A stretch of DNA of 64,000 nt from Deltaproteobacteria bacterium (lineage in GTDB: Bacteria; Desulfobacterota; Binatia; HRBIN30; JACQVA1): the NCBI GenBank assembly GCA_016210005.1, contig JACQVA010000012.1:62001-126000 (forward strand), written 5' to 3'. The notes beneath the pieces were generated by a model. The model saw only the letters and a program-made list of their open reading frames with translations. It ran no database searches and was not told the DNA's origin. Below are positions 4,793-50,232 of the stretch, in pieces (position 1 is the first letter of the stretch; each line of letters opens with the position of its first letter). The translations under genes were made by a program, and so were the position numbers.

Positions 4793-5959
4793 ATGAATAA
4801 CACTCCCGTGAACGGCCGGCGCCGGCTCCGGGTGCTGCACGTGGGTAAGTACTACCCGCCGCACGCCGGCGGAATCGAGACCCACCTCTCTGCCCTCTGT
4901 GGCGGGTTGCGGCGGCTGGTGGACGTCGAGATCATGGTCGCGAGCGAAGACGGCACCAGCCGCGAAGAGGCCGTCGACGGCGTGCCCGTGACCCGGGTTG
5001 CCACCATGATGGATGTCGCTTCCGCGCCGGTGTGCCCGGGCATGGTCCGCGGTATTCGCGCCACACAGGCGGATATCATTCATCTCCATCTGCCGAACCC
5101 GGCCGCCGTCCTCGCCTACCTGGCCAGCGGCCGGAACCTCCCCTTGGTGGCCTCGTATCACAGCGACATCGTGCGCCAGAAAGTTCTCGGGCGCGGCTTC
5201 GCTCCGTTCCTGCAGCGCTTCCTGCGGCGCTGCGTGGCCATAATCGTAGCCTCGCCCAATTACCTCGACAGCTCTCCGGTCCTGCAGCGCCACCGCCAGC
5301 GCTGCCGCGTGATTCCGTACGGAATCGCCGGTGCCGACTTCCGGGAGAGCGATGAGCGGCAGGTGGACGGTATTAGGCAGCGCTACGGCTCCCCGCTCAT
5401 CCTCAGCGTCGGGCGTCTCGTCTATTACAAAGGGCTGCCCTACTTGATCCGCGCCATGGGCCAGGTGGGGGCGCGGCTGCTCATCGTCGGCGACGGCCCG
5501 CTGCGTGCCATCCTCGAGCAAGAGGCCGCGGCCCTCGAGGTCAGCGACCGAGTGATCTTCCTCGGCCCCGTGCCCGATGTGCGTCCGTACTACCACGCCG
5601 CCGACGTCTTCGTGCTGGCGTCGGTGGCGCGCAGTGAGGCGTTCGGCATCGTGCAGTTGGAAGCGATGGCGAGCGGAGTGCCGGTGGTCAACACCTGGCT
5701 GAAATCCGGCGTGCCGTTCGTATCCCGCAACGGCCGCACTGGGCTGACGGTGCCGCCGGAAGATCCCGATGCGCTCGCTGATGCCATTAATCTGCTGCTC
5801 GCTGACAAAGAACTGCGCGCGCGCTGTGGCGCGGCGGCGCGGCGCCGAGTGCAGGAAGACTTCAGCGTCGAGACCATGGTCGAGCGCACGGCGCAGCTCT
5901 ACCGCGAGGTACTCGCCGCCCAGCCGGCGTGCGACGCCTCAGCCGTCGTAGAATCGTGA
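4793..5959 (+). CDS. GT4-family glycosyltransferase
   Basis: A 388-residue GT-B enzyme. The N-terminal domain has HVGKYYPPHAGGIETHLSAL (acceptor-side GG-I-E loop). The C-terminal domain has SVGRLVYYKGLPYLIRAM, VGDGPLR, and RSEAFGIVQLEAMASGVPVV with the E-x7-E donor-binding motif. Length and motifs match lipopolysaccharide or exopolysaccharide mannosyl/galactosyl-transferase-type GT4 proteins; donor and acceptor cannot be read from sequence. ATG 4793 lies 24 nt after the preceding stop, and the next gene begins 10 nt after this one ends, so it belongs to the same plus-strand operon. Confidence 0.9.
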   Translation: MNNTPVNGRRRLRVLHVGKYYPPHAGGIETHLSALCGGLRRLVDVEIMVASEDGTSREEAVDGVPVTRVATMMDVASAPVCPGMVRGIRATQADIIHLHLPNPAAVLAYLASGRNLPLVASYHSDIVRQKVLGRGFAPFLQRFLRRCVAIIVASPNYLDSSPVLQRHRQRCRVIPYGIAGADFRESDERQVDGIRQRYGSPLILSVGRLVYYKGLPYLIRAMGQVGARLLIVGDGPLRAILEQEAAALEVSDRVIFLGPVPDVRPYYHAADVFVLASVARSEAFGIVQLEAMASGVPVVNTWLKSGVPFVSRNGRTGLTVPPEDPDALADAINLLLADKELRARCGAAARRRVQEDFSVETMVERTAQLYREVLAAQPACDASAVVES

Positions 5960-5969
5960 GGTAGGCCTG

Positions 5970-7922
5970 GTGTTGAAGTACATCGTACTCGGCGTGACCG
6001 CGGTAACCTTCGCGCTCTTGATTACCCCCGGGATACGAGCGCTGGCGTTGCGGCTCGGAGCCGTAGACGAGCCCGGCGGACGCCATGTCCACCACCAGCC
6101 GGTCCCGCGCCTGGGCGGGCTCGCCGTGCTCGGCGCGCTCGCCGGCGCGCTGGCTGTCGGGCGTGCCGTAGACCTCCTGTTCTTCGACGTCTTCGTAGGC
6201 TACGGCTGGGGCTGGGCCTGGCTGCTCCCCGGGGCGTTGGTCGTGGTAGCGACCGGAGTGGTTGACGACGTGCGCAGCCTGGGCCCGTTGGCGAAGCTGT
6301 GCTGCCAGATAATTGCCGGGGCGATTGCGCTGGCCGGCGGCTACGCCATCAGCGCAGTGAGCAACCCCTTCGGCGGCGGGCCGATCGCGCTGGGCTGGTT
6401 GGCCGCGCCCGTCACACTGCTGTGGGTGGTTGGCATCACCAATGCCTTCAACCTGATTGATGGTCTCGACGGTTTGGCGGCCGGGGTCGCATTGATCGCT
6501 TCGGCTACGCTATTCGTGATGTCAGTTGCCGGCGGCCGCATCGAGGTGGCGCTGTTGTCAGTGGCACTGGCGGGAGCGCTGGCCGGCTTCTTGTACTACA
6601 ACTTCAACCCGGCCTCGATCTTCCTCGGCGACTGCGGCAGTTTGCTGCTCGGCTATCTGCTGGCCACCCTGTCGATCCGGGCCTCGCACAAGGGCGCGAC
6701 CGCGGTCGTCATCTTGGTGCCCATCCTGACCTTGGGCTTGCCGATCATGGATACGCTGCTGGCGATGCTGCGCCGGCTCCTGGGTGCCCTGCGCGTGGTG
6801 CAGTCGGACCGCTCGCGCAACGAGTACCGCTTCCTGGTCATCGGCTCGGCCTCGATCTTCCGCGCCGATCGCGAGCATATCCATCACCGGCTGTTAGCGC
6901 TGGGGTTGACCCATCGGCGGGCGGTGCTGGTGCTCTACGGTGCTTGCCTGCTCCTGGCGGGCGCCGCGCTGCTGCTGGTGCTGACGTCTGGGGCCAACAC
7001 CACGGTGGTAGGCCTGGTCGTGGCCGCGGCCATGTTTGCCGGCATCCGTAAGCTCGGCTACCACGAGATCGAAATCGTGCGCCGGGGCACGCTCCTGCCG
7101 CTGTTCGAGCTGCCGGTGTTCAACCGGCGCCTGTTCCATGCCTTGGTCGACGGCGGGTTCGTCGGGGCGGCGTACTTGGGGGCTTTCTTTCTGGTGTCTC
7201 CCAACGGTCTGTCGCCCAGTGCCCGCGCTTACGCGCTGTTGAGCCTGGCCGCGGTGGCGGCGGTGAAGTTGATCGCGCTTGCCTACAGCGGCGTTTACGA
7301 GCGTAGCTATCGCCACCCAAGCGCCGGCGACGTGATGGCGTTGCTTAAGAGCGTCATGGCAGCCCAAGCGGCGGCGATCGCCATGCTGGTGCTCTGCTAC
7401 GGGGTGCCCGAGCACGCGCTGGCACTGCTCGTGCTCGACTCGTACCTGACGGCAACCTTGGTGGTCGGGGCGCGGTTGTTGTTCTGGCTGCTCGAATTCG
7501 CCGCTCGCAGTCAGCGCGCGGCGCCGGCATCGCCGGTGCTGATATATGGTGCCGGCTCGGGCGGCAGCTCGCTGCTGCGGGAGATCGTCCAGAACCCGGC
7601 ACTGGGCCTGCATCCGGTTGGGTTTGCTGACGACCTACCGAGCCTTTGGGGGCGCCAGGTCAACGGCGTTCCGGTGCTTGGTGGTAGCGACCGGCTTGCC
7701 GAAATGATTCGGCAACACCGTGTACAGCAAGTGATCGTCGCCAGCCCCAAGATCGCCCCCGAGCGCGTCCAAGCCGCGGCTGCGGCTTGCCGACTCTGTG
7801 GCGCGCAGCTGCGCCAGTTCCGCATGACCCTTGAACCCGCCTCGCCCGCCGTAGCACTGTTAGCCGCCTCTCTAGTCACACCAAGTGAGCGCGCGCCTTC
7901 GTACCAACAAGCCGGACGATGA
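5970..7922 (+). CDS. WecA/MraY-like phosphoglycosyltransferase fused to a CapD-type NAD-binding domain
   Basis: A 650-residue membrane protein with two recognisable halves. Residues 1 to about 330 are a polytopic WecA/TagO-type enzyme that transfers a sugar-1-phosphate to undecaprenyl phosphate: DEPGGRHVHHQPVPRLGG near 33-50, GVVDDVRSLG near 97, FNLIDGLDGLAAG near 160, FLGDCGSLLLG near 219, and REHIHHRLL near 300. After more helices, residues from about 520 hold a Rossmann domain with LIYGAGSGGSSLLREI, followed by VNGVPVLGG, as in the N-terminal region of CapD/WbpM-like sugar dehydratases. The dehydratase catalytic domain is absent. Start is GTG 5970. It probably initiates synthesis of the repeat unit extended by the upstream glycosyltransferases. 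Confidence 0.85.
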   Translation: MLKYIVLGVTAVTFALLITPGIRALALRLGAVDEPGGRHVHHQPVPRLGGLAVLGALAGALAVGRAVDLLFFDVFVGYGWGWAWLLPGALVVVATGVVDDVRSLGPLAKLCCQIIAGAIALAGGYAISAVSNPFGGGPIALGWLAAPVTLLWVVGITNAFNLIDGLDGLAAGVALIASATLFVMSVAGGRIEVALLSVALAGALAGFLYYNFNPASIFLGDCGSLLLGYLLATLSIRASHKGATAVVILVPILTLGLPIMDTLLAMLRRLLGALRVVQSDRSRNEYRFLVIGSASIFRADREHIHHRLLALGLTHRRAVLVLYGACLLLAGAALLLVLTSGANTTVVGLVVAAAMFAGIRKLGYHEIEIVRRGTLLPLFELPVFNRRLFHALVDGGFVGAAYLGAFFLVSPNGLSPSARAYALLSLAAVAAVKLIALAYSGVYERSYRHPSAGDVMALLKSVMAAQAAAIAMLVLCYGVPEHALALLVLDSYLTATLVVGARLLFWLLEFAARSQRAAPASPVLIYGAGSGGSSLLREIVQNPALGLHPVGFADDLPSLWGRQVNGVPVLGGSDRLAEMIRQHRVQQVIVASPKIAPERVQAAAAACRLCGAQLRQFRMTLEPASPAVALLAASLVTPSERAPSYQQAGR

Positions 7923-44434: not shown

Positions 44435-44686
44435 GCATCGTCCTAGCCGGGGCCGACTGCCGCAACACTCATGCCGTTGCGGTCGCGCAATCACGGCTGG
44501 TGATTTGGCGCGCTAGGAATCTAGGCGAGTGGCAGTTCTGCGAACGAATTCAGCAGCTAAGAAGAAATGCCCGTCGGCCGAGTCCGACAGCAGGTCGGAC
44601 TTACTGCCGCCGGGGCGTGCTTTCGGGTCGTCTTGAATGCTATGGTCCACGCCCGGCAACGCCATCATTCGGAGCAAGGAGCTATC

Positions 44687-47362
44687 ATGCCGCAATCCGA
44701 TCTGTCGCCTTCGTCTTCCGCCCACGGCAACGGTGGTAGAATCGATGGTCTTCCCCGCTTGGCGGATCTCAGCTCGCCGGTCGGGCAGAGCGAGACGTTC
44801 CAGGTGCTGCTGTCGCTTGCGGAGCGCAAGACGGGCCTGATTCCCGCACCGCTACTTGCCACTCACGTGCTGTCGGTAACCAGCGCGGGGGACTGGCCGC
44901 TGCAACGGGCGGCGATGGAGGCGTTACTGCGCCGCTGCAAGTTCGCCAAGCAGGACGCCCTCGAGGTCGCTTCGCGTCCGGCCGGCAAGGGCATGTACGG
45001 CCAGTACAAGACCAAGCGCGCCGGTTCGAGCGAGCGCCCGTACACCACGTTACTGGCAGGATTCGAACCGTTGCGCGCCAGTTGCGACTGTGCCGACTTC
45101 GTGCGCAACTCGCTGGGGATCTGCAAGCACGTGCTCACCGTGCTCGACGATCTCGCCGGCCGCGGGCACAGCCTCGCGAACGGGCAAGCGGCGCCGCCAC
45201 CACCGCAGCGGCCTTGCGTGCACTGGCATCCGGTTCGCCCACTGACCGGCAAGGGCGACTGGCTCGAACGCGTCAGCCTGATCGCCGGCGGGGACGGCGG
45301 CTCATTGCCGGCCAATCTCAGCAAGTGGTTTTGTCGCAGCGATACGGGAGCACTGATTCCCGACCCCGCTCACGCGGGCACACCCCGCGGCCGCCTCGGG
45401 CTGGTGAATGCGCTCCTGTCGTTGGCAGCATCCCAACCCCGACGCCGCAGTGGGGACGGCGTGGCTATGGAGCCGGCGCTACGTCTCCTACTCGCAACGG
45501 AAAAGGAAAGCCTGGAACGTATCATCGGCAACCAGGTTGCGGCGCCGGCGTTTCAGCGGGCCTTGCACTCTCTCAAGCGCAAGCTGTACCCGTACCAAAG
45601 CGAGGGCGTCGAACGCTTCCTGACGGCGGGCCGGCTCTTGCTCGCTGACGATATGGGCCTGGGCAAGACCGTGCAGGCCATCGCCGCGGGTCACGCATTG
45701 TGGGCTACCGGCAAGGTGCAGCGCGGCTTGCTCATCGTGCCGGCCAGTCTCAAGCCGCAGTGGCTGCGGGAGTGGCAGCTTTTCACTGACACGCCGATCG
45801 CCGTCGTCGAGGGCGGGCCGGCGCAGCGCTGGGCGGCCTACCGCAAGCAGGCCAAGGGTTTCCTGATCGCCAACTACGAGCAGGTGCTGCGCGACCTCGA
45901 GCACATGTATGGATGGCGACCGGACCTCGTCGTGCTCGATGAGGCCCAGCGCATCAAGAACTGGGCGACCAAGACCGCGGCCTATGTAAAGAAGCTGCGG
46001 CCGAAATATCGGCTGGTTTTGACCGGCACCCCGATGGAGAACCGGATCGAGGAATTGGCCTCGCTGCTCGACTGGGTCGATGACTTCGCCTTGGAACCGA
46101 AGTGGCGGCTACAGCCGTGGCACTCGACCTACACCGACGGCAAGAAGGAGGTGGGCGGGGCGCGCCACCTCGACACCTTGCGCCAGCGTTTGTCCGGGAG
46201 CATGGTCCGGCGCGTCCGCAGCGAGGTATTGCGCCAGCTGCCGCCGCGTACTGACACCACGGTGACCGTCGAACTCACCGAGGCCCAGCGTGAGGAGCAC
46301 GATGCCCTGATCCAGCCAATCGCCCAACTGGTGGCGATTGCCCGGCGCCGGCCGCTGGCGCAAGCCCAGTTCCTGCGGCTGATGAGTTTGCTGACGACCC
46401 AGCGCATCATCGCCAACGGCCTGGGCCAGGTGCAATTCGCCACGGTGTGGCCGGCGATCTCGCAGGTGCGCCAGCCCGACGCCGCCTTGGTGCAAACCCT
46501 ATCGAGCCCGAAGCTGCTCGAGTTGCGCGAGATCGTGACCCAGCTCGCGCTCGAACAGGGCCGCAAGGTTGTTGTCTTCAGCCAGTGGCGCAGGATGCTG
46601 CAACTCGCCCATTGGGCCGTTGCCGGCCTGCTCGGCGAGCGCGGAGTGCGCGCGGTGTTCTTCACCGGACACGAGGGGCAACAGCGCCGGACACAGAACA
46701 TCGTCGAGTTCCACGACGACCCGAACACGCGCGTGCTGTTCGCCACCGACGCCGGCGGCGTCGGGCTCAACCTGCAACGCGCCGCCAGCAGCTGCATCAA
46801 CATCGAGCTGCCCTGGAACCCCGCGGTCTTGGAGCAGCGCATCGGACGCATCTACCGCATGGGGCAGAAGCAGCCGATCGACGTCTACAATCTGGTGAGC
46901 GAAGCCAGCATCGAGGGGCGGATCGCGGCGTTGGTGTCAGGCAAGCGAGCACTCTTCACCGGCCTGTTCGACGGCGACAGCGACGAGGTCCGCTTCGACC
47001 GCAGTGGTTCGTTCTTGGCGCGTCTGGAACAGATCGTCGAGCCGGTGCAGGTGCCCGATCTGCCCGAGAACCGCGACGGCGCGGACGACACCGAGGCCGC
47101 CGATCGCGAAACGGACGGAGTGGTGGGTGCGGCCGACGAGTCGCAGGACGTCGCTGCCGCCACCGCAGCGGCAGCCAGCACACTGCTTGTGGGTGCCGCG
47201 CCCCCTTCTGCGGTCGATGTGAAGTCGCTCTTTGCCGCCCTCGAAATCCGCCGCAGCGAGCGCGGCGGCATCACCATCGAGGCGCCGCCCGAGGCCGCCG
47301 CCACACTCGCCGCGCTGTTCGAAGGCATGGCCACCATGCTGCGCGCACAGGCAGCCGCCTAG
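44687..47362 (+). CDS. SNF2-family helicase with SWIM zinc finger
   Basis: An 891-residue protein starting at ATG 44687 (AAGGAGCTATC upstream). A SWIM zinc finger lies near 133-148 (CDCADFVRNSLGICKHV: C133, C135, C146, H148). The two-lobe SNF2 ATPase follows: LLADDMGLGKTVQAIAAGHA (Walker A at 321-328), VVLDEAQRIKNWATKTA (DEAQ at 418-421), LTGTPMENRIEELASLLDW, ATDAGGVGLNLQRAASSC and LEQRIGRIYRMGQKQPIDVY. The last roughly 100 residues are acidic and Ala-rich. It would translocate on double-stranded DNA to remodel protein-DNA complexes. No restriction or defence partner is adjacent, and it seems to stand alone. Confidence 0.93.
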   Translation: MPQSDLSPSSSAHGNGGRIDGLPRLADLSSPVGQSETFQVLLSLAERKTGLIPAPLLATHVLSVTSAGDWPLQRAAMEALLRRCKFAKQDALEVASRPAGKGMYGQYKTKRAGSSERPYTTLLAGFEPLRASCDCADFVRNSLGICKHVLTVLDDLAGRGHSLANGQAAPPPPQRPCVHWHPVRPLTGKGDWLERVSLIAGGDGGSLPANLSKWFCRSDTGALIPDPAHAGTPRGRLGLVNALLSLAASQPRRRSGDGVAMEPALRLLLATEKESLERIIGNQVAAPAFQRALHSLKRKLYPYQSEGVERFLTAGRLLLADDMGLGKTVQAIAAGHALWATGKVQRGLLIVPASLKPQWLREWQLFTDTPIAVVEGGPAQRWAAYRKQAKGFLIANYEQVLRDLEHMYGWRPDLVVLDEAQRIKNWATKTAAYVKKLRPKYRLVLTGTPMENRIEELASLLDWVDDFALEPKWRLQPWHSTYTDGKKEVGGARHLDTLRQRLSGSMVRRVRSEVLRQLPPRTDTTVTVELTEAQREEHDALIQPIAQLVAIARRRPLAQAQFLRLMSLLTTQRIIANGLGQVQFATVWPAISQVRQPDAALVQTLSSPKLLELREIVTQLALEQGRKVVVFSQWRRMLQLAHWAVAGLLGERGVRAVFFTGHEGQQRRTQNIVEFHDDPNTRVLFATDAGGVGLNLQRAASSCINIELPWNPAVLEQRIGRIYRMGQKQPIDVYNLVSEASIEGRIAALVSGKRALFTGLFDGDSDEVRFDRSGSFLARLEQIVEPVQVPDLPENRDGADDTEAADRETDGVVGAADESQDVAAATAAAASTLLVGAAPPSAVDVKSLFAALEIRRSERGGITIEAPPEAAATLAALFEGMATMLRAQAAA

Positions 47363-47916
47363 CCGCTGCGGCGCCGTTCGGCGAGCCGGGCGCGAGTCAT
47401 GCGCTCGCGCAGGCCGCCTTCCTCGATGAAGGCACGCTCCAATTGCCGAATCTGCCGGTCGAGCAGGTAACTGCTCACACGGATCAGGCCGATGATAACG
47501 TTGGCCGCAACCAGCGGATCGGCGCTCTCGATGCCCTTGCGGAAGGTCTCGTAGGTGGCGTCGGGGATTTGGTTCAGCTCGCGCAAGCGGCGTGCGTAAG
47601 CATGCTCTTTCGGCCACTCCGCCCCGCCGCGCACGCGCAGGAAGTCGCGGTAGTCAGCCAATAGCTCCTCCAGGCTGGCGCGCGCCACGTTGGTCAGCTT
47701 GATCTCGGTCTCCTTGGAGGTGGCCGACGCCATACTGCCTTCGATGATGTTCTGCTTACCGGAGCGCGCCGCCTGGACCATCTGGTCATGCGTGCGGCTG
47801 CGCCGGTCGATGAAGTGATCGCAGAAGTAGACAGTGGCGTCGTAGACGATCTCCGCCTTTTGGTAAGAGCGCAGGCGCTTGTAGCCACCGTGCCGCGGGA
47901 TGAAGCCGGTGCTCAT
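47359..47916 (-). CDS. Four-helix-bundle (IVS/23S rRNA intervening-sequence-type) protein
   Basis: A 185-residue helical protein of the four-helix-bundle IVS family: YKRLRSYQKAEIVYDATVYF, FIDRRSRTHDQMVQAARSGK, NIIEGSMASATSKETEIKLT, NVARASLEELLADYRDFLR. Related proteins are encoded in 23S rRNA intervening sequences and serve as accessory proteins of some diversity-generating retroelements; no reverse transcriptase or template repeat is here. The gene ends tail to tail with the SNF2 gene, sharing CTAG. A repeat-built hairpin starts 30 nt upstream of its ATG. Confidence 0.88.
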   Translation of the reverse strand: MSTGFIPRHGGYKRLRSYQKAEIVYDATVYFCDHFIDRRSRTHDQMVQAARSGKQNIIEGSMASATSKETEIKLTNVARASLEELLADYRDFLRVRGGAEWPKEHAYARRLRELNQIPDATYETFRKGIESADPLVAANVIIGLIRVSSYLLDRQIRQLERAFIEEGGLRERMTRARLAERRRSG

Positions 47917-47945
47917 GGGCTAGCCCTTGGTAGCAAGCGAAGAAA

Positions 47946-48108
47946 AGGACTGCAAGAAGAAAAGGACAACAAGGGACTGCAAGGACAACAAGGACTGCAA
48001 AGACAGGAATGGCGCCAAGGTGTCCTTGCAGTCCTTGTTGTCCTTGCAGTCCCTTGTTGTCCTTGCAGTCCCTTGTTGTCCTTGCAGTCCTTTTCTTCTT
48101 GCAGTCCT
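47946..48108. repeat. Long hairpin made of AAGGACTGC/AAGGACAAC repeats
   Basis: The left arm 47946-48005 and right arm 48021-48108 are near-perfect inverted copies around a 15-nt centre (48006-48020) that includes GGCGCC. Both arms consist of units such as AAGGACAACAAGGGACTGC; the right arm holds two extra units, so repeat number differs between arms. The outer ends share AAGAAGAAAAGGAC. It fills the gap between the IVS-type gene and the convergent-side hydrolase gene. Such a structure could fold in RNA from either strand and could act as a terminator for the hydrolase gene or its downstream neighbour. Confidence 0.8.
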
Positions 48109-48127
48109 CGCAGTCCTCACCATCCCC

Positions 48128-49468
48128 CTAGTCCGCCTCCCACACCAACGGCGCCACCGCTACCTCACCGTTAGTGAGTGTAGCCACCCACGGCCAGCCC
48201 GCGGTAGTGATGTACCAAGCCTCCTGCTGCGGCTGATACACCAGCTCGGCGGCGTGCGCGGCTAGCCGCGTCAACAGCGACGGCGAGCGCCGCACGCCGC
48301 GGTAAGTGCCGAAATCGTAGGGGTTGTCCGCATGGAACACCAGCGTGTCATTGTAAGAAGGCGGGTCGAGCCAGACCTTGGCCGCCAGCAGCGCCGCCGG
48401 CCAGAAGAACGAGTCGTTGTTGTAAGTCAGCGCCAAGTAGTAACGCCCCCGGTAGCGGGCCACGGCCGGCGACTCGGTCGAGGCTACGATGGCGTTGCGC
48501 TCGCTGCCCCAGCCGCTGTCTAAGGCCGCACCGATGTATTGCCAGCCCTCGAGGTCAAACGACTGGTAGAGGTCAACGCGCGAGAAGTAACGGCCGCGCG
48601 CGGTGCTGTAGAGCAGCCACTGCCCGGGCGCGAGCTTGAGGATCATCGCGTCGCGAAAGAACCGATGCATCGGCGCCGGCATGACGACGCGGTGATCGGC
48701 CCAGGTGATCCCGTCCGCTGAAGTCATGCGGTGCAACTGGTGGGGCGACCAGAACAGCGAGTAGCCGCCACTATCTGTGAGCACATGCGGCGCCCAGGCG
48801 AGTGCACCGAAGTCGGCCACCGGCGTCTCTTCGCGCATACCCGCGGCCGGCGGGAAGTCGGAACTGGAGCCGGAGGCGAAATACTTCTCCTCGGCGTAAT
48901 TGCCGTCACTCTGCGAAGTGATGCCGAGCACCCGCCAACGACCGCCGGCATCCTGATAGACGGTGTGATCGTTGATGTAGCGGCCGTGCCGCTGCGGCCG
49001 GAACAGGGTCTGCCACGGCCCGGCGATGCGCGGGACGAAGACCGGCGCCTGGCCGGCTTCGACCGTGGCGCTGACTTCGCCGAGCAGGCGCGCCGGGCCG
49101 GCATCGGCCGGCTCGGCCCACACGCGATAACTGCCGCTCTGCCGCAGCAGGTACGAGCCGAATTTGGCGCGGCCGATCGGTTCCCAGGCCTGCGCCGTAC
49201 GCCGCTCGACGCGGTATTGCTCGGCCCCGGGATCAGCGATCCACCCGAGGTGGGCCCAGCCGATGCCGCCGGCGAGCTGCAAGCCGAAGCCGGCTTGGCG
49301 TTGGCGCACGAAATGGCGCGGTATCGAGCTATAAAAATCGGTGGCCAGCGGCCATTCGAGCGCGCTGCGGACGGCGGCTTCGAGCAGCAGCCACAGGCCC
49401 AGGAGCGCAGCCGCAGCGGCTAGCAGTCGCCGCCCGCGTCCAGGGCGCTTGTGGGGCAGTGCGCTCAA
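48128..49468 (-). CDS. Membrane-anchored five-bladed-propeller glycoside-hydrolase-like protein
   Basis: A 446-residue protein. TTG 49468 is proposed because it overlaps the upstream stop (TTGA) and precedes a hydrophobic anchor (RRLLAAAAALLGLWLLLEAA); the frame stays open further but overlaps the SDR gene. The mature part resembles GH43/GH32-type propellers: RYINDHTVYQDAGGRWRVLG, FGALAWAPHVLTDSGGYSLF, FRDAMILKLAPGQWLLYSTA, VASTESPAVARYRGRYYLAL. Acidic residues in NDH, DAM and STESP fit the family's catalytic arrangement. An additional N-terminal beta domain (residues about 40-150) could bind carbohydrate. Substrate is unknown. Confidence 0.75.
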   Translation of the reverse strand: MSALPHKRPGRGRRLLAAAAALLGLWLLLEAAVRSALEWPLATDFYSSIPRHFVRQRQAGFGLQLAGGIGWAHLGWIADPGAEQYRVERRTAQAWEPIGRAKFGSYLLRQSGSYRVWAEPADAGPARLLGEVSATVEAGQAPVFVPRIAGPWQTLFRPQRHGRYINDHTVYQDAGGRWRVLGITSQSDGNYAEEKYFASGSSSDFPPAAGMREETPVADFGALAWAPHVLTDSGGYSLFWSPHQLHRMTSADGITWADHRVVMPAPMHRFFRDAMILKLAPGQWLLYSTARGRYFSRVDLYQSFDLEGWQYIGAALDSGWGSERNAIVASTESPAVARYRGRYYLALTYNNDSFFWPAALLAAKVWLDPPSYNDTLVFHADNPYDFGTYRGVRRSPSLLTRLAAHAAELVYQPQQEAWYITTAGWPWVATLTNGEVAVAPLVWEAD

Positions 49469-50232
49469 TAGAAATCCGGCCGCAGCATGGCGTCGGTGCC
49501 GCCGTCGACGAAGAGCACGCTGCCGCAGCAGAACGACGCATCCGGGCTGAGCAGGAACACGATCGCCGCAGCGATCTCCTCGGGCTCGCCAAAGCCGCCG
49601 GTGGGGATCGGAAACGACTGAATCGCCGGGCCAAACACCGGGTGATTCAGGCCTTCCTGCAACAGCGGAGTCATGACCGCACCGGGAGCAACGGCGTTGA
49701 GCCGGATGCCGGCCCCGGCCCACTCCGCCCCGGGCGCGCTGCGGCGCACCCAGCGCGCCAGCGCCAACTTCGAGCCGGCGTAGCAGCGGTGCCCGTCGAG
49801 CGTCATCGCCAGGCGGCGCGCCTCGGCTTCGTCACCGGCCAGACAAACCTCCACCAGTGGTGAGTCGGCGCCCGGGATGGTCGAGGAGTTCGACGAGACC
49901 GCCACTACGGCAGGATCCTCCCCCTGGGCCAGCGCCGGGCGCAGGCCGTCGAGCAACGCGATGGCGCCGAAGTAGTTCAGCGACACGATCGTCGACCACG
50001 GCTCGACCTGGGGCCCGACGCCGGCGCAGGCCACCAAGCCGTCGAGCCGGCCGCCGCAGAGCTGCAGCACCGCGGCCACCGCCGCCACCCGCCCGGCGGC
50101 GCTGGCCAGGTCGGCGATGACCTCGGCATCGCGCAGGTCGATACCGATGACCGTCTCGCCACCGACTTCCAGTCGCGCACGCGTGGCCGCGCCGATGCCG
50201 GACGCCGATCCGCTCACTGCAATAACACCCAT
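49465..50232 (-). CDS. Short-chain dehydrogenase/reductase
   Basis: A 255-residue classical SDR. The cofactor motif VSGSASGIGAATRARLE is the T/S-G-x3-G-x-G loop, and IGIDLRDAEVIADL suggests NAD preference (Asp after strand 2). The active site has VVAVSSNSST and CYAGSKLALARWVRR (Tyr and Lys), and LNAVAPGAVMTPLL follows. The C-terminus SVLFVDGGTDAMLRPDF is typical. The segment EVCLAGDEAEARRLAMTLDG, an insertion before the catalytic Tyr, resembles 3-alpha-hydroxysteroid dehydrogenase/carbonyl reductase relatives, so a steroid or ketone substrate is possible. Coupled to the downstream propeller gene by a TTGA overlap. Confidence 0.9.
   Translation of the reverse strand: MGVIAVSGSASGIGAATRARLEVGGETVIGIDLRDAEVIADLASAAGRVAAVAAVLQLCGGRLDGLVACAGVGPQVEPWSTIVSLNYFGAIALLDGLRPALAQGEDPAVVAVSSNSSTIPGADSPLVEVCLAGDEAEARRLAMTLDGHRCYAGSKLALARWVRRSAPGAEWAGAGIRLNAVAPGAVMTPLLQEGLNHPVFGPAIQSFPIPTGGFGEPEEIAAAIVFLLSPDASFCCGSVLFVDGGTDAMLRPDFY

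Follow-up and report, generated by a model that had tools for sequence, protein, structure and literature searches.

What does a long hairpin built from short repeats have to do with the IVS-type four-helix-bundle gene that it adjoins? The question is raised by one locus of a 64,000-nt stretch of DNA from a Deltaproteobacteria bacterium, which was analysed at its full length and is called the window here. An earlier sequence-only reading had placed the hairpin and the gene side by side, and the arms, the fold and the open reading frame were all confirmed (Table 1).

Table 1 Features of the hairpin locus, in window coordinates.
Feature	Position	Strand	Evidence
Convergent neighbour, complete SNF2-type helicase	44567..47362	+	PF00176 128 bits, PF00271 70 bits
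IVS-type four-helix-bundle gene, C-terminal suffix domain, 185 aa, ATG start	47359..47916	-	TIGR04258 73.2 bits, TIGR02436 27.4 bits
Hairpin overall, 9-nt AAGGACTGC/AAGGACAAC units	47939..48117		
Gene-proximal hairpin arm, 5 GGAC units (AAGGACTGC / AAGGACAAC)	47939..48005		Repeat search and sequence
Core arms	47962..48005 / 48021..48064		
Loop between core arms, 15 nt	48006..48020		Repeat search
Distal hairpin arm, 10 GTCC units, about twice the other arm	48021..48117		Repeat search, sequence and folding
Upstream neighbour, weak glycosyl hydrolase family 43 match	48128..49723	-	PF04616 23.4 bits, below cutoff

The protein encoded at this locus exceeds the curated cutoffs of both TIGR models (40 bits for TIGR04258 and 24 bits for TIGR02436), which places it in the IVS-type family and gives it the four helix bundle suffix domain; its PF05635 score of 25.9 bits lies below the cutoff of 33.8. 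It shares 57-81% identity with 15 aligned relatives. By sequence, no solved structural relative was found for its subfamily, while the standard IVS-type protein has one (XCC0516, 2gsc, E = 2e-20). The window protein did not match the Avd model, and a viral scan found no relative.

The two core arms of the hairpin, 44 nt each, are 98% complementary, and outer arms extend out to 47939 and 48108. As RNA, a 209-nt stretch folds at -130 kcal/mol, compared with -67 ± 5 kcal/mol for dinucleotide shuffles (z = -13.1), and none of 200 shuffles folded as well. The unequal unit numbers of the arms had earlier been taken as a sign of ongoing expansion; the inequality (5 versus 10) was borne out, and it does suggest expansion, though nothing firmer. 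The hairpin lies between two same-strand genes, about 10 nt past the stop of the GH43-like gene and about 25 nt before the IVS-type start codon (a gap of 23-30 nt), and the IVS-type gene overlaps the end of the SNF2-type helicase gene by 4 nt. The exact double unit, AAGGACTGCAAGGAC, occurs in the 5.9-Mb genome only in this hairpin; one partial array of AAGGACAGC repeats was found where contig C73 ends. That contig also has several closely spaced copies of a second dispersed palindrome family, CCCTCTCCCCGCAnnnnnnTGCGGGGAGAGGG (L146:1876-2205 and 5741-5993, G000:C73). No Rfam family, rRNA included, matched in the window, and a pattern scan of the locus found no promoter-like or terminator-like site.

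We then asked how IVS-type genes elsewhere are flanked, in a sample of 112 such genes from the bacterium's own order and 26 genomes of other groups; this genome and most of those surveyed are draft assemblies or MAGs, and open reading frames were called mechanically. Two-sided inverted repeats were ten times commoner at IVS-type genes (47% of 112) than at the other genes of these loci (4.3% of 94; p = 6e-13), and shuffles gave 0.4%. Either form, two-sided or a same-side hairpin, was found at 59 of 80 standard genes from several phyla (28 of 36 in the own order alone), at 12 of 15 genes of the window's subfamily and at 8 of 47 genes of other suffix types, against 4 of 68 control genes and 1% of shuffles. 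The commonest repeat lags are 7, 8 or 14 in standard elements and 9 in the window's subfamily. Three further observations concern IVS-type genes elsewhere. Two IVS-type genes of the cyanobacterium Laspinema (L207, L223) are flanked by GTCATTT and GGATGGGGA arrays that resemble cyanobacterial STRRs. A Myxococcales MAG (G166, locus L038) holds 42 PF05635 matches, many of them fragmentary, which we read as a burst of copies followed by decay. Finally, type I-C CRISPR operons encode, between cas7 (Csd2) and cas4, suffix-type IVS proteins that form a separate clade, a placement verified by family search in L369 (e.g. L369:825-3346; L367-L380); the same downstream cas4-like sequence recurs in about a dozen loci of the phylum, a clear hairpin is absent there, and the clade is perhaps a domesticated member.

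The sequence of the repeat unit varies among elements and co-varies with the protein. At least three AAGGAC-type units were found at 10 of 12 genes of the window's subfamily, compared with 1 of 24 long-suffix and 1 of 87 standard genes, the subfamilies having been split by a regular-expression motif after the data were seen. The carriers in the window's subfamily come from its own order, Acidobacteria and Hydrogenedentota. Similarly, the more alike two proteins are, the more alike are their arms (Mantel rho 0.149, higher than in any of 500 permutations): arms are shared by 13 of 17 standard-element pairs above 60% protein identity and by about 1% of those below 40%. A fresh sample, with the hairpin at three of five subfamily loci (at L364/L365 and L366, not at L382 and L385), supports the link between unit and protein in part. 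The idea that hairpin and gene belong together thus holds up: the same pairing recurs in relatives, and the unit is tied to the protein subfamily.

The bacterium's own genome contains nine PF05635 matches. Four standard genes (L003-L006) are each enclosed by inverted repeat arms; the pair on contig C170 shares one unit and the other two each have their own. Three of the four sit within large open reading frames. On C170 (L143) a 1391-aa helicase holds one element and a 1149-aa DUF1156 methylase another, and four gene-less hairpins lie in the methylase and the following DUF499 ATPase gene, with all frames staying open. PADLOC identified these three hosts as HmaA, HmaB and HmaC, so that two gene-bearing elements and four solo hairpins fall within a single HmaABC defence cluster (L143:4280-17477, G000:C170); the elements may prefer defence genes as targets or be tolerated there. 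The L003 element is within a PglX-like methylase, and L006 is beside another methylase open reading frame that holds several solo hairpins. Altogether, the in-frame hosts of gene-bearing or gene-less forms comprise HmaA/B/C, PglX, DnaE2 and an NRPS, the last with a solo AAGGAC hairpin in frame in its adenylation domain (L354).

Two of these hosts, HmaB and DnaE2, have homologues without the insertions. HmaB homologues (66-85% identity) run uninterrupted through the sites of one gene-bearing element and two solo hairpins. The DnaE2 element of genomes G014 and G006 lies in the linker between 'LWQ.AAIP' and 'PLPEMSPLDRTLADY'; ten DnaE2 relatives are without this insert, one of them keeping a short repeat remnant. 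A view of this host as the essential replicative polymerase was dropped, the host being the error-prone paralogue. No empty site was demonstrated for the window copy, whose nearest orthologous helicase (G013, 59%) has different neighbours. Elsewhere in G013, the last 1.5 kb of L394 contains a solo GGGTGCAGGGTGC hairpin and a CAGGACCTCAAGACCT array, with no adjoining IVS-type gene. The window copy also differs from the standard elements in having both arms on one side of the gene (two-sided cross score 8). The description that suits it best is a variant of these elements that is one-sided and lies between genes.

Along the nested gene, no stop codon closes the host frame. Of 85 standard genes, 15 had an open +2 frame, compared with 3.4 expected when synonymous codons were permuted within each gene (Poisson p about 3e-6 by our own arithmetic), although some of the 15 are orthologous pairs, so that the events are fewer and about five distinct host genes are well supported. 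The +1 frame was open in 1, with 0.5 expected. Differences between nested genes fall at codon positions 1/2/3 in the ratio 25/14/57, and identity is 79% in their own frame versus 40% in the host frame. With most changes at third positions and far stronger conservation in its own frame than in the host's, the nested gene is under purifying selection, whereas all that the host frame requires is to remain open. If the elements are as they seem, odd inserts in some annotated proteins (peptides such as REVRNE..LTPHSS) would conceal an overlapping gene.

Gene-less hairpins with a matching unit are scattered through the same genomes. An earlier scan for three AAGGAC units, though noisy (168 of 205 matches were without an inverted copy or an IVS-type gene, mostly coding noise), yielded the first of them. 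A strict pattern then found 102 hairpins in an acidobacterial genome (G146), 16, 9, 6, 4 and 1 in five others and none in 35 more, a rate that is not unbiased since G145, G146, G147 and G148 entered the set for having such repeats; a reversed control pattern gave no match. Within the own order, both genomes that hold such hairpins carry IVS-type genes. Solo units are uniform within a genome, and in G146 (CT/CC) they are the same as the units next to one IVS-type gene of that genome; the loops vary among the 31 solo hairpins compared there. Repeats occurring independently of IVS genes had been named as the finding that would speak against the pairing. Solo hairpins are indeed common, yet they sit mostly in genomes with the matching IVS-type subfamily, as non-autonomous copies would; G148 has hairpins and no IVS-type gene.

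Could the arrays be passive repeats, produced by replication slippage and hairpin templating as in the short tandem repeats of cyanobacteria, with IVS-type genes merely caught between them? The units are simple and differ between elements, loops are not conserved, gene-less arrays exist and one genome has nothing else. We consider this unlikely, however, given that arrays are commoner beside IVS-type genes than beside the other genes at those loci, and given the link between unit and subfamily across phyla and the conservation of the nested gene.

A regulatory hairpin is likewise improbable. Here the hairpin would be a leader mRNA control or stability element that the protein binds in autoregulation, and the solo hairpins would be further sites of this regulator. 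The short distances to a stop and a start codon on the same strand and the co-variation of unit and subfamily agree with such a role. So does the distribution of solo AAGGAC hairpins, 37 of 50 of which are intergenic, while solo hairpins lean slightly towards the 3' ends of genes (44 versus 27, p = 0.057), a preference too weak to be kept as a terminator signal. Standard elements, however, carry one arm on each side of the gene, and a regulator leaves unexplained the in-frame hairpins in coding sequence whose homologues are empty.

The sequence-only reading had further connected the locus with retroelements, and this found no support. Working with a reverse transcriptase like Avd in diversity-generating retroelements, the protein would use the hairpin as RNA template. 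The standard proteins of this genome do match the Avd model weakly (E about 1e-6), and its only strong reverse transcriptase, on C178 (G000:C178, L011), is an RVT_1 gene beside a divergent Avd-like gene, a probable diversity-generating retroelement. Nevertheless, RVT_1 is absent from the window's contig and from four carrier genomes (G014, G002, G005 and G007, holding 10, 5, 7 and 2 IVS-type matches, respectively), so that a reverse transcriptase is dispensable; together with the lack of an Avd match in the window protein, this makes a retroelement accessory very unlikely. An intrinsic terminator of the GH43-like gene, unlinked to the IVS-type gene, would suit the position after a stop codon but is equally remote, since the pattern scan was negative, no T run follows the stem, the hairpin is far longer than a terminator and the repeats are common to relatives of the IVS-type gene.

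The window gene and its hairpin probably represent, together, a single member of a family of mobile elements of the IVS type. These consist of an IVS-type gene with inverted short-unit arrays around or beside it, and gene-bearing and solo forms alike lie between genes or in frame in protein genes whose homologues are without them. We read them as elements that live in protein genes and intergenic DNA, like the Rickettsia palindromic elements (RPEs) except that they include a coding member. The empty sites, the dispersal and the scattered unit families are best read as signs of mobility, and, in keeping with the earlier proposal that the hairpin may be the end of a mobile unit, the whole has the look of one. 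Since the protein is without a catalytic domain, hairpin binding is its most likely activity. Probably built as a pentamer of four-helix bundles in a ring, it would bind a hairpin of its own kind, as extruded DNA or RNA, and promote the copying of that hairpin to new sites. The enzyme for the joining step would come from the host or another element, the best candidate being a Y1 transposase, and solo hairpins would be non-autonomous copies. Copies in genes would survive only if stop-free and in frame; because a 9-nt unit, as in the window hairpin, is read in the same codons at each repeat, it takes little for a hairpin to be free of stops. In the own order, IVS-type and Y1 matches occur in exactly the same 12 genomes, and the other 3 have neither; across these 15 genomes the two counts do not track each other closely, and genome size may explain the co-occurrence. 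Several points count against a mobile element: the protein has no catalytic domain, no polymorphic site was seen between close strains, target-site duplications were not made out at base level, the loops not shared in G146 are odd for copies of one master, G148 has hairpins but lacks an IVS-type gene, and the window copy is one-sided, with no empty site demonstrated.

More tentatively, and as a possibility that we would not yet call probable, the elements could form a widespread class in which a hairpin of idiosyncratic units is paired with a cognate four-helix-bundle protein that recognises it. Such elements would be tolerated in protein genes through the overlap of host frame and nested gene and moved in trans, perhaps by a Y1 transposase; they would correspond to the in-frame palindromic elements but with a gene of their own, and would be one origin of STRR-like arrays. 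As for the family itself, hairpin-forming insertions that also sit within ordinary protein genes and leave the reading frame unbroken suggest a selfish element of a kind so far under-recognised, and a role for a protein of no assigned function. We know of no function for S23/IVP-type proteins, which are common in bacteria, and to our knowledge it is an open question how in-frame palindromic elements spread. If the elements are as they seem, a single system would allow both questions to be tested, with a named protein, a named hairpin and hosts with clean empty sites. A literature search, outside which most subscription papers lie, did not turn up any description of IVS-type genes located in protein genes or accompanied by such arrays.

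Among known systems, the Avd protein of diversity-generating retroelements is a distant sequence relative of the standard IVS-type proteins, but no reverse transcriptase accompanies the present elements and IVS-type genes abound in genomes without RVT_1. REP/RAYT systems combine dispersed hairpins with a gene flanked by inverted copies. The present elements share both traits, but the gene flanked is not a Y1 transposase: the gene adjoining the window hairpin is of the IVS type, and the Y1 matches of the same genome lie on other contigs. Cyanobacterial short tandemly repeated sequences are described as repeats alone. They are likewise short-unit arrays, such as those flanking the Laspinema IVS-type genes; the link between the STRR sequences named in PMC4748335 and IVS-type genes is drawn here from those two loci.

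RPEs are palindromes of about 150 bp found in frame in unrelated protein genes (PMC10969869), a location that the standard elements share. RPEs have fixed sequence families with no known member carrying an IVS-type gene, whereas the present arms are repeat arrays and some copies carry an IVS-type gene that is read in a frame other than the host's. The window copy is intergenic; its relatives at L143 and L354 are in-frame palindromes. The 23S rRNA IVSs of Leptospira and Coxiella, which hold an S23/IVP gene between terminal inverted repeats (about 430 nt; a 28-bp terminal stem in Coxiella), are regarded as selfish, and rRNA IVSs are excised by RNase III (PMC4990558). Known IVSs lie in 23S rRNA and are cut by RNase III, whereas the present elements lie in protein genes or intergenic DNA, their arms consist of short-unit arrays, and they have dispersed copies without a gene. 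The window copy is outside a 23S rRNA gene and its gene is not enclosed by terminal inverted repeats, but most standard elements elsewhere do hold an IVS-type gene between inverted repeats, and in anatomy these standard elements are IVSs.
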